Assembly (NCBI RefSeq): GCF_003614185.1
Contig: NZ_KZ987724.1
Span: 4,357,482-4,409,981, forward strand
Source: Paenibacillus aceti
GTDB taxonomy: Bacteria > Bacillota > Bacilli > Paenibacillales > Paenibacillaceae
Reading direction: 5' to 3'
Length of the DNA: 52,500 nucleotides
The stretch's first letter is position 1. Each line of letters begins with the position of its first letter. The notes below the pieces were generated by a model that was not told where the DNA came from, did no database searches, and saw only the letters and a list, made by a program, of their open reading frames with translations. A program made the translations under genes and the position numbers. Shown here one piece after another: positions 3,255 through 21,880 of this stretch.

Positions 3255-4070
3255 ATGGAACGGGATCAGAAGGTTGAGGCTAAGGAAGCCTTTCCCGAGT
3301 GGATACAGGAGCATCAACAGGCACTGCAGAAATACTGCCGTTCTCTGACCGGCTCGGTCTGGGAAGGGGATGATCTTGCTCAGGAGACCTGGATGAAGGT
3401 ATGGGCATATGTGCAGGTAAGATCAGCGGCACAACAGACCGATATATCGCGGGCTTTTCTATACCGCACGGCTCGAAATGCTTGGATTGACCAAGGGCGA
3501 AGAAAACGATTGGATATGGTCTCGATGCCGATGGAGCCGGAACAAATGCAAATGAATGGCTATCCGCGAGAAGACTCGTACCAGCCGCCTTATGATCATT
3601 CTGCTCTTCATCACATCATGGAGCGCTTGATCCAGGGATTCACCCCGGAGCAGAGAACGGTCTTCTTATTGATTGACGGTCTCAAGTTCACATCCAGAGA
3701 GGTATCGGGGATGCTGAATATGACAGAAGGCGCAGTAAAAGCTCTGCTGCATCGTTCCCGTGTTAAATTAAGAGCGCTGAAGCCCCTAGTGACCCCTGTG
3801 AGCCAAGATGATCCAAAGGGACCAACAAAGGGACCGCACCGTCCCTATCCTGCCTTACAGGTGGATGAGAGCACTGTCTATGCCTATATCAAGGCCTTCA
3901 GTGAACAGGATGCGCTCGCCTTGCTCCAGCTGATGAATGAAGGGAGCCATGACGTTCTTCCGGCTATTCAATATGTGCATAATGAGAATTCTAGCCAGGC
4001 GAACTCTGCTGAGATGAAGGCGACCGGATTGCTGAGCCATTATGACTTTATGTGCAGCATGGTGGCGTAA
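3255..4070 (+). CDS. ECF-type sigma-70 family sigma factor with C-terminal extension
   Basis: Region 2 is seen in LQKYCRSLTGSVWEGDDLAQETWMK, with the LAQETW core, followed by ARNAWIDQGRRKR (region 2.4). Region 4 is FTPEQRTVFLLIDGLKFTSREVSGMLNMTEGAVKALLHRSRVKL, a helix-turn-helix ending in the canonical LHRSR. About 100 extra residues follow, including DESTVYAYIKAFSEQDALALLQLM, which resembles the start of the SnoaL/NTF2-like domain of ECF41-type factors but is shorter than a full domain. Two starts are possible: ATG at 3255 (GAGGA six bases upstream, 271 aa) or GTG at 3228 (280 aa, GAGG five bases upstream). No anti-sigma gene is adjacent; a clpP paralogue follows 125 bases downstream. Confidence 0.85.
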   Translation: MERDQKVEAKEAFPEWIQEHQQALQKYCRSLTGSVWEGDDLAQETWMKVWAYVQVRSAAQQTDISRAFLYRTARNAWIDQGRRKRLDMVSMPMEPEQMQMNGYPREDSYQPPYDHSALHHIMERLIQGFTPEQRTVFLLIDGLKFTSREVSGMLNMTEGAVKALLHRSRVKLRALKPLVTPVSQDDPKGPTKGPHRPYPALQVDESTVYAYIKAFSEQDALALLQLMNEGSHDVLPAIQYVHNENSSQANSAEMKATGLLSHYDFMCSMVA

Positions 4071-12873: not shown

Positions 12874-13365
12874 TCATTTATGCCGCAGCTTCTTGAAGAA
12901 TTGCTTAAGCAAGTCGGCGCATTCCTCTTCGAGTATGCCGGCTGTTAATTCTGTGCGGTGATTGAATCTAGGCTCCTGGAGCAGATTCATCAAGGTCCCG
13001 CCACAGCCTGCCTTGGGATCGGCGGCTCCATAGATCACATGGGGCACCCGGCATTGTACGATCGCACCAGCACACATGGGACAGGGCTCCAGCGTTACAT
13101 ACAGCCGACAGTGCAAGAGTCGCCAGGCATCGATAGATTCGCTGGCCGCCCGGATGGCGATCATCTCAGCATGGGCTGTTCCGTCTCGTGAGCTTTCCCG
13201 CAAATTGTATCCTCGACCTACAATTTCATCCCCACGAACAATAATTGCGCCGATGGGTACTTCTCCAATGGCTTCGGCCTTGCGCGCCTCAGCTATCGCT
13301 TCACGCATCCAGTATTCATGAGGATAATTCGATGCAGGGGGTTCGTGAGTGTGAGGTGTTGACAT
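12874..13365 (-). CDS. tadA: tRNA-specific adenosine deaminase TadA
   Basis: Deaminates A34 to inosine in tRNA-Arg(ACG), allowing one tRNA to read three arginine codons. The zinc site is His65 and Glu67 in TAHAE and Cys95/Cys98 in EPCPMCAGA. The 163-residue protein has a short extra N-terminus rich in Pro and His. In B. subtilis tadA lies just before the SRP RNA gene and points with it; here it points the other way and is 33 kb from that gene, marking a rearrangement boundary. Confidence 0.96.
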   Translation of the reverse strand: MSTPHTHEPPASNYPHEYWMREAIAEARKAEAIGEVPIGAIIVRGDEIVGRGYNLRESSRDGTAHAEMIAIRAASESIDAWRLLHCRLYVTLEPCPMCAGAIVQCRVPHVIYGAADPKAGCGGTLMNLLQEPRFNHRTELTAGILEEECADLLKQFFKKLRHK

Positions 13366-13432
13366 CGCTTGTTCAGCTCCATTTCATAGATGTTCTACTG
13401 AATTCTAATCAGTAATTTAAGGTTTTGTCCAA

Positions 13433-13446
13433 CGAACAAATATTCG
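13433..13446. promoter_or_regulatory. LexA (SOS)-like box
   Basis: CGAAC-AAAT-ATTCG matches the Bacillus SOS operator CGAAC-N4-GTTCG except for one base. It lies 68 bases upstream of tadA and 190 bases before the kinase promoter. One mismatch in a short site can arise by chance. Confidence 0.35.
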
Positions 13447-13458
13447 TTGTTAACATGT

Positions 13459-13552
13459 TGTGGATAACACTGTTCATAAGTAGCGGTTTATCCCCATTTT
13501 TATACACATATTAGACTTTTGAGCTGTGCATATGTTGATAACTTGTTCATAA
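13459..13552. promoter_or_regulatory. DnaA-box cluster
   Basis: Within 94 bases there is one perfect DnaA box, TGTGGATAA (13459-13467, reverse of TTATCCACA), three with one mismatch (TTATCCCCA 13488-13496, TTATACACA 13500-13508, TGTTGATAA 13533-13541) and three with two mismatches (TGTTCATAA 13471-13479 and 13544-13552, TGTGCATAT 13525-13533). AT-rich DNA follows. The replication origin itself is expected near dnaA-dnaN, not here, so this is read as a secondary DnaA-binding locus that could also regulate the flanking genes. Confidence 0.65.
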
Positions 13553-13635
13553 CTCTTATGAAGAGAAAGTAAAAACCGTTGAAATTAGATATTTTTTCTT
13601 AATTGTAGGTAAAGGAAATAGGAATTTCAACGTCT

Positions 13636-13663
13636 TTGCAAAATCTTACAATACGGTTATGAT
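13636..13663 (+). promoter_or_regulatory. Sigma-A-type promoter of the kinase gene
   Basis: TTGCAA (13636-13641), 16-base spacer, TATGAT (13658-13663). Transcription would start near 13670, about 60 bases before the TTG start codon. Confidence 0.5.
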
Positions 13664-13685
13664 GAGAATAGTATGGTAGCCAGAT

Positions 13686-13692
13686 TTCGACA
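13686..13692 (-). promoter_or_regulatory. Spo0A box downstream of the kinase promoter
   Basis: TTCGACA is an exact reverse complement of the Spo0A core TGTCGAA. It would sit at about +17 relative to the predicted transcript start, a position expected to repress. Confidence 0.4.
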
Positions 13693-13728
13693 CTAACCTC
13701 AACGTCATGCCAAGAGGTGAGAAGATTT

Positions 13729-15633
13729 TTGTCCATTAAATCTAAATTATCTATAGTTATGTCACTTTTTGCTATAGCTATATTAACGGTTAACATCATC
13801 CTTAGTTTCCTGTCTGTTCGTGAGAATCTGCGCCGGGATAGCGAAGCTAATATGATGTTAATCGCTAAGCAAATTGCCTTGGCGGTAGAACAGTCGCGTT
13901 CCGTGAATGATTATGTGCGCAGAAGCAATATCGGCAGAGAGGACCAGAACGGAAGCTTCTTTGCCGGAATGCTGGACATGACAAGTCCGGAACGAATTGT
14001 ACGCGAGTCACTGGGAGCAAATCAAGATCTGTTGGAGATCACTGGTTTCTTCCCTGATGAGTTCAGGGATCGTCATAGCCTCCTATTTGGCTCGTATGAG
14101 TATATGAATGATTCGGATATCTTCGAAGCGGTTTTGGAAGTGTCGGAGAAGGGGACGAGTCTGCTGCGGGACAGTTATATTGATGGACAGCGGGTGTTGG
14201 AGAGCTTCATCCCGATTCAACCTAATAATCAGCCTCCTTATGTCATCCGGATCATTTCCAGCTACGAGCCGATTTCTGCGGCGGTTACCAAGCAGGTGAT
14301 TAATGAGATCTTTATCTCCATTATACTGCTGCAAATTGTCGTATTCGCTAGTTATATTATAGCCGGGGAATTGATTCGTCCAATTCAAGTTATATTGAAG
14401 AAGGTGAATCAGCTTTCATCCGGGGATTTCAAGATGAGAATTGCGTTCGGACGGAAGGATGAACTCGGTGTATTGGCGCGGCAAATTAATATGATGGCGG
14501 ATAATCTGGGACATTATACAGAGGAATTGAAGCTTAAGAACGAAGAGAACCAGGTGATTAAAGAACGTCTCGAATCGATCATTAATCAGATGGCTGATGC
14601 GATTCATGTAACAGACCTGAACGGCAGGATACTAGAGGTAAATAAAGCATTCGAGAAGCTGTATGGTTGGGAGAGCAGTGAAATTGCCGGCACTGAGCTC
14701 GATTTCGTACCTGACTCCTGCAAGGAGGAGAGGGCAGCGTGGCTGAAGCAGCTGGAAGAGGGACGGCCTTACGTCCTTGTTGAGACAACCCGTATATGTA
14801 AGGATGGCAGACTGATCAATGTGAGTGTTAGCGTGTCACCTATATTGGATGAGGAGGGGGAGATCGTGTCTATTATTAGCATTTCAAGGGATATGACCGA
14901 GCATAATAAAATGGAAGAGCTACTGCGGCGTGCGGAGAAATTACGGACGGTCGGACAGCTGGCGGCGGGCGTAGCGCATGAAATACGCAATCCGTTGACG
15001 ACACTACGAGGATTTCTGCAATTGCAGCAGCGGACGGGAAATGTAAATGAGACACATACCGATATTATGCTGTCGGAGCTGGAACGGATCAATATGATCG
15101 TCAGTGAATTTCTGATACTGGCCAAGCCGCAGGCTGTTCAGTTCGAGACAAGAGATGTCCGTTATACTGTTGGCGATGTGATTTCGCTGCTGGATAGTGA
15201 GGCGCACTTACATAATATTGAGTTTGAACACCATTTCTCCTCTTCCCCACTTCTGGTACACTGTGAAGAGAATCAATTGAAGCAGGTCTTCATCAATGTC
15301 TTGAAGAATGCGATGGAGGCGATGCCTGGAGGGGGCAAGATCATACTTCAGGTGAGTGAGGAAGGGGATCATAAGGTTGCCATTCGCGTCATTGACCAAG
15401 GAGAGGGAATATCGGAGGAACGGCTAGAGAAGCTGGGAGAGCCCTTCTATACAAGCAAAGAGAAAGGGACAGGCCTCGGACTTATGGTCAGTCAGCGTAT
15501 CATTGAAGGCCATAAGGGAATGTTTGAGATTGATAGCGAACTAGGCAAAGGAACGATCGTGACAATCACTCTTCCACAGATTACGGAAGCGCATGAAGAG
15601 GCGGCTACGCCCACTACAGGAGAAATAGCATAA
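13729..15633 (+). CDS. Sporulation-type sensor histidine kinase (HAMP-PAS-HisKA)
   Basis: Order of domains: TM1 (about residues 4-26), extracytoplasmic sensor region to about 190, TM2 (INEIFISIILLQIVVFASYI), HAMP (RPIQVILKKVNQLSSGDF), PAS (ESIINQMADAIHVTDLNGRI...) with PAC, HisKA and HATPase_c. The phosphorylated histidine is His417 in AAGVAHEIRNPLTTLRGF, the H-box type of KinA/KinB/KinE kinases that feed Spo0F; N, G1 and G2 boxes are NVLKNAMEA, DQGEGI and GTGLGLMVS. No response regulator is adjacent, as expected for a phosphorelay kinase, and spo0F is in the same window at 39.4 kb. TTG 13729 follows AGAGGTGAG with a seven-base gap and is preferred to GTG 13717. A Spo0F target is inference. 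Confidence 0.9.
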   Translation: MSIKSKLSIVMSLFAIAILTVNIILSFLSVRENLRRDSEANMMLIAKQIALAVEQSRSVNDYVRRSNIGREDQNGSFFAGMLDMTSPERIVRESLGANQDLLEITGFFPDEFRDRHSLLFGSYEYMNDSDIFEAVLEVSEKGTSLLRDSYIDGQRVLESFIPIQPNNQPPYVIRIISSYEPISAAVTKQVINEIFISIILLQIVVFASYIIAGELIRPIQVILKKVNQLSSGDFKMRIAFGRKDELGVLARQINMMADNLGHYTEELKLKNEENQVIKERLESIINQMADAIHVTDLNGRILEVNKAFEKLYGWESSEIAGTELDFVPDSCKEERAAWLKQLEEGRPYVLVETTRICKDGRLINVSVSVSPILDEEGEIVSIISISRDMTEHNKMEELLRRAEKLRTVGQLAAGVAHEIRNPLTTLRGFLQLQQRTGNVNETHTDIMLSELERINMIVSEFLILAKPQAVQFETRDVRYTVGDVISLLDSEAHLHNIEFEHHFSSSPLLVHCEENQLKQVFINVLKNAMEAMPGGGKIILQVSEEGDHKVAIRVIDQGEGISEERLEKLGEPFYTSKEKGTGLGLMVSQRIIEGHKGMFEIDSELGKGTIVTITLPQITEAHEEAATPTTGEIA

Positions 15634-15651
15634 CGGGGTGACCATACAATA

Positions 15652-16353
15652 GTGAGGATCAATAAATTTATCAGTGAGACAGGATATTGCTCCAGACGGG
15701 AAGCGGACAAGCTGGTTGAGTCCGGCAAGGTGACGATTAACGGGGAGACGGCCGTGCTGGGAAGCCAGGCGGAGCCGGGAGACGATGTCAGGATCAATGG
15801 GATTTCTCTGCAGGAGAAGCCGTCCAAGCAGGTTTATATTGCACTTAACAAGCCTGTTGGCATTACTAGTACAACAGAGCAGCATATCAAGGGCAATATC
15901 GTCGATTTTGTCGGGCATGAGGAGCGTATCTTTCCGATCGGACGGCTGGATAAGGACTCGGAAGGGTTAATATTGCTGACCAGCGATGGGGATATCGTGA
16001 ATAGAATATTGCGGTCCGAAGGCAAGCATGAAAAAGAGTATATTGTGACGGTGAATCGTCCGATTACTCCCTCATTTCTAAAGGCGATGGGGGAAGGAGT
16101 GCGGATTCTTGGCACCATGACACTGCCTTGCCGGATTACCCGTATTTCCGATCGGACGTTCCGGATTATTCTTGTTGAAGGCAAGAATCGGCAGATTCGC
16201 CGCATGTGCAGCGCTCTCGGATATGAAGTGAAGAAGCTGCAGCGGATTCGCATTATGAATATCCAGCTTGGGTCATTGAAGGTCGGGGCTTGGCGTGATC
16301 TAACTGAGGCGGAGAAGATAGAGCTGGGGAAAATGCTGAATTATAAGCTTTAA
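15652..16353 (+). CDS. 23S rRNA pseudouridine synthase, RluF/RsuA family
   Basis: An N-terminal S4 RNA-binding domain (MRINKFISETGYCSRREADKLVESGKVTING) precedes the RsuA-type catalytic domain with catalytic Asp in GRLDKDSEGLILLTSDG and the conserved VEGKNRQIRRMCSALGYEV. LNKPVGITSTTE is typical of RluF, which modifies U2604 of 23S rRNA and, in E. coli, tRNA-Tyr. The GTG start follows GGGGTGA by ten bases, and the gene begins 18 bases after the kinase stop, so both are likely co-transcribed. The exact target uridine cannot be told from sequence. Confidence 0.9.
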   Translation: MRINKFISETGYCSRREADKLVESGKVTINGETAVLGSQAEPGDDVRINGISLQEKPSKQVYIALNKPVGITSTTEQHIKGNIVDFVGHEERIFPIGRLDKDSEGLILLTSDGDIVNRILRSEGKHEKEYIVTVNRPITPSFLKAMGEGVRILGTMTLPCRITRISDRTFRIILVEGKNRQIRRMCSALGYEVKKLQRIRIMNIQLGSLKVGAWRDLTEAEKIELGKMLNYKL

Positions 16354-20822: not shown

Positions 20823-20840
20823 GATGTAAACTCCTTCCAA

Positions 20841-20960
20841 GGCCTGCGAGGTTAGCTTGTGGATTCGGTTGAAGGTTCCCTATGGCGCATATCAGCCGCC
20901 AATTCACCCTGAATGGTTCCCCCGTTTCCCGGGTGCTGAGGAATTCGGCTGTTCTAAGTT
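20841..20960 (-). promoter_or_regulatory. c-di-AMP riboswitch (ydaO-yuaA), copy 1
   Basis: Read on the minus strand the leader has the conserved ydaO blocks: GCCGAATTCC, GGGGGAACCA, GGGTGAATTG, ATAGGGAACC, AACCGAATCC and AGCTAACCTCGCAGGC, in that order. The last block ends only a few bases before the Shine-Dalgarno GGAAGGAG, and there is no terminator between, so control is probably at translation. c-di-AMP riboswitches are generally OFF switches and commonly control wall hydrolases and K+ transport. Boundaries are approximate. Confidence 0.88.
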
Positions 20961-21682: not shown

Positions 21683-21701
21683 GAAAATACTCCTTCCGAT
21701 T

Positions 21702-21815
21702 GCCTACGAGGTTAGCTTAAGGATTCGGTTGAAGGTCCCCTATGATCCCTCTCTAGCGAGATCAATTCACCCAAAGTGGTTCCCCCGTTCCCCTTCAAGG
21801 GAATTCGGCCATGAT
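21702..21815 (-). promoter_or_regulatory. c-di-AMP riboswitch (ydaO-yuaA), copy 2
   Basis: Minus-strand blocks GGCCGAATTCC, GGGGGAACCA, GGGTGAATTG, ATAGGGGACC, AACCGAATCC and AGCTAACCTCGTAGGC match the ydaO consensus and the first copy; the variable P-stems between blocks differ, as expected for two functional duplicates. No terminator separates it from the start of the gene. Confidence 0.88.
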
Positions 21816-21880
21816 TTCATAAAATAATTGTTATAATTACACTTGCTATTGCTATTACTTGACTAATTATGACAATAATA

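Follow-up and report, generated by a model that had tools for sequence, protein, structure and literature searches.

Clusters of DnaA boxes outside oriC have been described in Bacillus subtilis at gcp/ydiF, ywlC, yqeG/sda, trmE, ywcI/vpr and yydA/yyzF. They are reported to be mostly intergenic and to hold 4-11 high-affinity sites, and two of them sit upstream of trmE and ywlC (PMC4447404). Loss of all six leads to early initiation, an effect reported to be strong only when all six are gone (PMC5295017). Joint control of genes by DnaA and LexA has also been reported: in B. subtilis, DnaA activates sda and LexA represses it (PMC11925247), and in Escherichia coli the two proteins co-regulate the uvrB and recN promoters (PMC8203912).

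Here we compare with these systems a DnaA-box cluster of Paenibacillus aceti that lies between tadA and a histidine kinase gene. An earlier note on this DNA had proposed that the cluster serves the kinase. The evidence set out below points to tadA as the likelier target.

Layout and density of the element

The cluster occupies 94 bp (13459-13552) of a 351-bp intergenic region, with tadA on one side (-) and the kinase gene on the other (+). Positions are those of the window, i.e., the whole stretch of 52,500 bp that was analyzed (4,357,482-4,409,981 of contig 1, in a 5.6-Mb genome). The dnaA gene starts at about 4,267,851, some 103 kb from the cluster, and the origin-side location claimed in the earlier note is borne out. 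The neighboring genes also agree, and the last box ends 83 bp before the promoter-like TTGCAA-16-TATGAT ahead of the kinase gene, where the note had given about 85 bases. The features are as follows.

12874..13365, minus strand: tadA, tRNA adenosine(34) deaminase (NCBIfam PRK10860.1, 180.7 bits against a cut-off of 150)
about 13424..13430, minus strand: possible tadA -10, GACAAA (GNAYAA motif), suggested by positional frequencies and hexamer scores
13433..13446, no strand: LexA-type operator, CGAACAAATATTCG (minus strand CGAATATTTGTTCG), form CGAACN4RTTC
13447..13455, plus strand: TTGTTAACA motif, nearly invariant within the genus, holding a -35-like TTAACA (minus strand, 13448-13453)
13459..13467, minus strand: DnaA box 1, perfect TTATCCACA
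13471..13479, minus strand: DnaA box 2, TTATGAACA in this genome, two mismatches to TTATCCACA
13488..13496, plus strand: DnaA box 3, TTATCCCCA, one mismatch to TTATCCACA
13500..13508, plus strand: DnaA box 4, TTATACACA, one mismatch to TTATCCACA
13525..13533, minus strand: DnaA box 5, weak, ATATGCACA, two mismatches to TTATCCACA
13533..13541, minus strand: DnaA box 6, TTATCAACA, one mismatch to TTATCCACA
13544..13552, minus strand: DnaA box 7, TTATGAACA in this genome, two mismatches to TTATCCACA; TTATGCACA or TTATCCACA in many loci of the genus
13589..13668, plus strand: second conserved block, with the promoter-like TTGCAA-16-TATGAT (13636-13663, picked by eye) ahead of the kinase gene; mean majority fraction 0.86
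13717..15633, plus strand: PAS histidine kinase, sporulation-kinase-like, domains HAMP, PAS, HisKA and HATPase
15652..16353, plus strand: S4-type pseudouridine synthase, the gene after the kinase

An exact recount against TTATCCACA gave four boxes with at most one mismatch (one of them perfect) and three with two, the same figures that the note had given. Against TTATNCACA, none of the seven has more than one mismatch. The LexA-type palindrome, which is absent from the note, directly adjoins the cluster, and TTGTTAACA is itself a degenerate DnaA box, in a 12-bp register with the next two boxes.

The boxes might be chance similarities in A+T rich DNA, without function. Single 9-mers of this kind are indeed fairly common: those within one mismatch of TTATNCACA occur at 0.93 per kb in a sample of 447,501 bp of the same genome (the window, a 15-kb stretch around oriC and 19 evenly spaced 20-kb stretches, scanned in 110-bp windows). 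Their density at the cluster is another matter. When the 351-bp region was shuffled 5000 times with dinucleotides preserved, the observed 4, 7 or 7 boxes per 94 bp (by three counting rules) were never reached, and the best shuffle under the TTATNCACA rule had 4 boxes vs. the 7 observed. In the density comparison that the note had suggested, the cluster was the densest place in the sample by the TTATNCACA rule at one mismatch (the next two places have five boxes each, one of them upstream of dnaA), and by the TTATCCACA rule at one mismatch its four boxes tied with two places of the oriC stretch. Together with conservation across the whole order (see below), the shuffles rule out chance density as the source of the cluster, and we give the chance reading a negligible probability. 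With several predicted boxes packed in intergenic DNA outside oriC, the cluster has the sequence character of a B. subtilis-type DnaA-box cluster.

Two other candidates for the intergenic region were rejected. Seven mechanical ORFs (20-66 aa) overlap it, but sda is located elsewhere in the genome, which speaks against a hidden Sda-like gene; a known structured RNA was discarded on zero Rfam matches at the gathering threshold. Elsewhere in the window there are two c-di-AMP riboswitches (20826-20960 and 21685-21820, -), on the same strand and about 0.7 kb apart.

The LexA operator consensus is CGAAC/T-N4-A/GTTCG. The palindrome at 13433-13446 fits this form, with the recA and lexA boxes of the same genome as a yardstick: recA has the similar CGAATGTATGTTCG about 87 bp upstream of its start, and ahead of lexA there are CGAACGTTTGTTTG, CGAACATTCGTTCC and CGAACGGCAGTTCT, picked by eye and again of similar form. 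The pattern CGAACN4RTTCG is not enriched genome-wide (15 matches vs. 32 on each strand for the reversed pattern used as control), and the case for a LexA site therefore rests on position and conservation. On these two grounds, the palindrome is probably a LexA site.

Conservation and the genes alongside

A DNA search with 13300-13800 found a match in 38 of 41 genomes of the genus, the query genome included. The best-aligned part, about 13425-13670, falls within the intergenic region. The three remaining genomes were later recovered by a sequence-only model, R1, built from 30 aligned loci of the genus. R1 finds the element in 294/296 genomes of the family and 17/19 genera (P. aceti and the 30 model sequences counted in). 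In its two misses, G050 and G054, the tadA-like matches are so weak (best E 1.5e-7 and 4.9e-7) that tadA itself seems absent from those assemblies. A second model, R2, draws on 30 family loci together with 16 of the 30 from the genus (46 sequences) and finds the element in 117/119 genomes of the order, a few of them doubtful and the model-building genomes counted in. Doubtful among the 117 are G297 and G302 (E 7.5e-4 and 5.0e-4), where the 320 bp ahead of tadA are free of boxes. As to the two misses, tadA is preceded in G319 by four boxes, with no LexA-type match, and in G299 by one box. The tadA genes of some genomes (of families f3 and f5, one of f8, four of f32 and one of f19) are without a cluster.

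Comparison with relatives in Paenibacillaceae, along the lines that the earlier note had proposed, came out in favor of the element: the boxes are conserved and the gaps between them are not. In the 30 aligned genus loci the mean majority fraction is 0.86-0.92 for the boxes, 0.93 for the LexA-type box and 0.99 for TTGTTAACA, and just 0.52-0.58 in the DNA that separates the box groups and in the spacer that follows them. The core that is kept across the families of the order consists of CGAACA-NNN-ATTCG, then TTGTTAACA, then two DnaA boxes.

We read 81 loci: 30 of the core genus, 30 of the family (25 from 16 other genera and five divergent members of the same genus) and 21 of a wider set (20 from other families of the order, and L189 from the same family). 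The two core boxes begin about 26 and 38 bp past the start of the palindrome, and both are within two mismatches in all 79 loci that could be anchored; within one mismatch of TTATNCACA, a box stands at the first position in 77/79 and at the second in 79/79. The canonical CGAACN4RTTC is present in 74/79 anchored loci, the anchor for the genus set being the palindrome itself, or in 74/81 when L206 and L209, which have no anchor, are counted. In these two the palindrome was not found and the DnaA boxes are kept; the other five of the 79 have a non-canonical palindrome. The array is longer in Paenibacillaceae, with 5-8 boxes in 27/30 family loci. Outside the family there are 1-5 boxes per 150 bp, with both the LexA-type site and the geometry mostly retained. 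(Per-locus box counts of L031-L034, L037, L052 and L207, where the anchor was misplaced, were disregarded.)

Model matches at the level of the class, outside the family, reach about 32 bits at most and were not counted as the element, because the oriC of P. aceti itself scores 25.6 bits; many of them are without the LexA part of the model. Eight such loci (L190-L197) were read. In four of them, all from family f32 (L190, L193, L194 and L197, near 1500-1570), a LexA-type box and DnaA boxes stand at near-equal spacing, not at tadA. In L193 this module precedes a gene for an 86-aa protein without a Pfam match, followed by a gene for a sigma-70-type factor.

The most constant partner of the element is tadA. 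It adjoins the element in divergent orientation in 30/30 core-genus, 30/30 family and 20/21 wider loci, i.e., in 80/81. The sole exception is L203 (family f9), where the element adjoins an epimerase-like gene; in three f9 genomes, tadA is preceded by seven to nine boxes within 320 bp. Since tadA and dnaA stay close wherever this is measurable, linkage to tadA is not fully separable from linkage to the region.

The kinase gene is a less constant neighbor. A match to it lies beside the element in 30/30 core-genus and 24/30 family loci and in 2/21 of the wider set (56/81 in all), the flanks having been read for about 1.5 kb, so that a kinase farther off would escape. Relatives with a kinase of 61% identity or more belong to Paenibacillus and Fontibacillus, with one further Paenibacillaceae bacterium (18/19 loci compared); the two matches of the wider set are just 27-28% identical. 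In three genera without the kinase (L148, L158 and L161) the gene straight after the element is a relative of the pseudouridine synthase; in L149 and L189 it is a motB relative. The mean number of boxes in the family is 6.2 with the kinase and 6.2 without it. As the kinase match is patchy, the boxes are equal in number with or without it and tadA is constant, the element appears to be older than the place of the kinase there.

These data bear on the reading of the earlier note, in which DnaA controls the kinase and thereby ties sporulation signaling to replication. In its favor, the kinase match is complete in the core genus, the cluster is close to the promoter-like block, and the block is itself conserved. 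The kinase may also act in a phosphorelay, to judge from its sequence: the nearest solved structure to its catalytic part is sporulation kinase B (3d36, E 4.2e-45), and this high likeness suggests that it may work like a sporulation phosphorelay kinase. The description "sporulation-type" stands as far as the catalytic part goes. The protein passes no curated sporulation-kinase model (KinD 224 bits vs. a cut-off of 775), and its best NCBIfam model is AtoS, at 310.5 bits below the cut-off of 646. Neither neighbor gene of the kinase encodes a response regulator. Against the reading, the spacer from the cluster to the kinase promoter is variable (majority fraction 0.52 vs. 0.86 in the block behind it, 30 genus loci), and the element is kept at the 6/30 family and 19/21 wider loci where no kinase was found in the flank. 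A kinase match in only 2/21 wider loci, vs. tadA in 80/81 loci overall, weakens the reading, and control specific to the kinase we reject. The claim that the cluster serves the kinase is not supported. Of the proposed link between DnaA and sporulation, a conserved, origin-proximal DnaA array remains, but the known link, sda, is separate and has DnaA boxes of its own. On the whole we regard control of the kinase as improbable. Within Paenibacillaceae, where the array is longer and lies behind the kinase promoter, the kinase may still be affected as a second target.

Candidate control of tadA

We consider it a little better than an even chance that the element is a cis-regulatory one, placing tadA under the joint control of DnaA, and so of replication state, and probably of LexA, and so of DNA damage. 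The sequence, its conservation, its fixed geometry, its company with tadA and the similar architecture at sda are direct observations. DnaA would assemble on boxes in the register of about 12 bp upstream of the tadA promoter, and LexA would sit on the palindrome between the TTAACA -35 and the weak -10, blocking transcription until SOS induction. Protein binding, the promoter that responds and the direction of the effect are the parts that we infer. Against this reading, there is no established rationale for tying tadA to DNA damage.

The order on the minus strand is TTAACA, an 18-bp spacer containing the LexA-type box, and GNAYAA, and these two hexamers are a plausible tadA promoter. The -35-like hexamer has five of six matches in 71/79 loci (best of seven placements). 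The -10 is weak in the core genus, with 3/6 matches in 23/30 loci and 2/6 in 5/30, and in other genera of the family it has four to five of six in 16/26 loci. Its complement here, TTTGTC, also belongs to a half-DnaA-box-like TTGTCC; outside the family the -10 is not conserved, and by eye a DnaA box often stands there instead. No published link between tadA and DnaA or LexA was found among the matches listed, as judged from titles and abstract openings.

A different function for the array would be that of an origin-proximal reservoir, which mainly titrates DnaA and delays initiation as the non-oriC clusters of B. subtilis do, the LexA-type site and tadA being secondary. By TTATNCACA no place in the oriC stretch is as dense in boxes as the element, which lies 30-142 kb from dnaA in 22/22 contigs that start at dnaA. 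That distance was measurable in 22 of the 39 contig starts checked, which were hand-picked, not random (19 mostly with near-start elements and 20 mostly with elements far from the contig start). A mere sink, however, needs neither a LexA-type site nor a fixed geometry, and outside the family it is these that mostly persist where the boxes have dwindled. Titration as the main role is a possibility that we hold to be unlikely, well short of an even chance. It may coexist with gene control, and the element under tadA control as favored here would then perhaps also act as a DnaA sink.

Other arrangements of DnaA boxes were also seen. In L094 (3446-7852), genes for a 6-phosphogluconate-dehydrogenase-like protein, a GntR-type regulator and an FGGY kinase lie between the rpmH/rnpA side (by eye) and dnaA, i.e., the origin region is split, and a further DnaA-box cluster lies near 3900-3940. 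DnaA boxes just 3′ of an ABC-F-like ATPase gene (L024:1501-1729) recall the gcp/ydiF cluster of B. subtilis. Nine boxes within one mismatch of TTATNCACA fall in about 300 bp, about 1.1 kb before the ctsR start (L294:1733-2034), and eight DnaA boxes in about 230 bp precede an EamA-type transporter gene (L112:13401-13624).

More broadly, and only tentatively, since we rate it somewhat below even, DnaA and LexA would jointly control tadA across the order of Paenibacillus, and tadA and sda would form one small regulon. Inosine tRNA editing (arginine CGN decoding) would thereby be coupled both to the state of replication and to DNA damage. A similar module stands ahead of a small, unrelated gene in another family of the class. 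Should this hold, signals of replication and damage would act on a tRNA-editing gene, the small set of DnaA + LexA promoters would have one more member, and there would be a testable case in which decoding capacity depends on the replication cycle. Even with a target other than tadA, a DnaA array conserved across the order and near the origin is a natural site for studying the control of initiation in Paenibacillus.

Comparison with sda and other known systems

In the 260 bp upstream of the sda gene of P. aceti (C1:3329445-3329567, L117) there are four DnaA boxes that match TTATNCACA with at most one mismatch, and the LexA-type AGAACGCTTGTTCT stands a single base away from the proximal one. 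The same holds widely. Of 28 sda upstream regions, one per genome and taken from 30 loci, two or more DnaA boxes are present in 26 and a LexA-like match in 24. This match lies 0-2 bases from the proximal DnaA box in 23 of the 24; in the other, G303, there is no box nearby. The tadA element resembles these promoters in that several DnaA boxes are joined by a LexA-type box, which at sda is 0-2 bases from the nearest DnaA box and at tadA stands directly beside the cluster. Of what makes up an sda-type promoter, the boxes and the operator are present at tadA and the adjoining promoter is only weakly recognizable. The two also differ: the orientation of the proximal boxes, the TTGTTAACA motif and the spacing are not the same, and the target here would be tadA, not a sporulation checkpoint.

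With the B. subtilis clusters outside oriC the tadA element shares the packing of boxes in intergenic DNA. Two of the genes behind those clusters, trmE and ywlC, have a role in tRNA modification. The tadA gene of B. subtilis goes by the name yaaJ. This name does not occur in the main text of the B. subtilis cluster paper (PMC4447404). Unlike those clusters, the tadA element has a LexA-type site and a geometry that is kept throughout the order. To uvrB and recN of E. coli, which are DNA repair genes of another phylum, it can be likened by the proposed DnaA + LexA co-control. Control by DnaA and LexA together is thus already known, from sda, uvrB and recN, and what would be new is the gene: in the best reading of the cluster, tadA is placed under this known kind of control.
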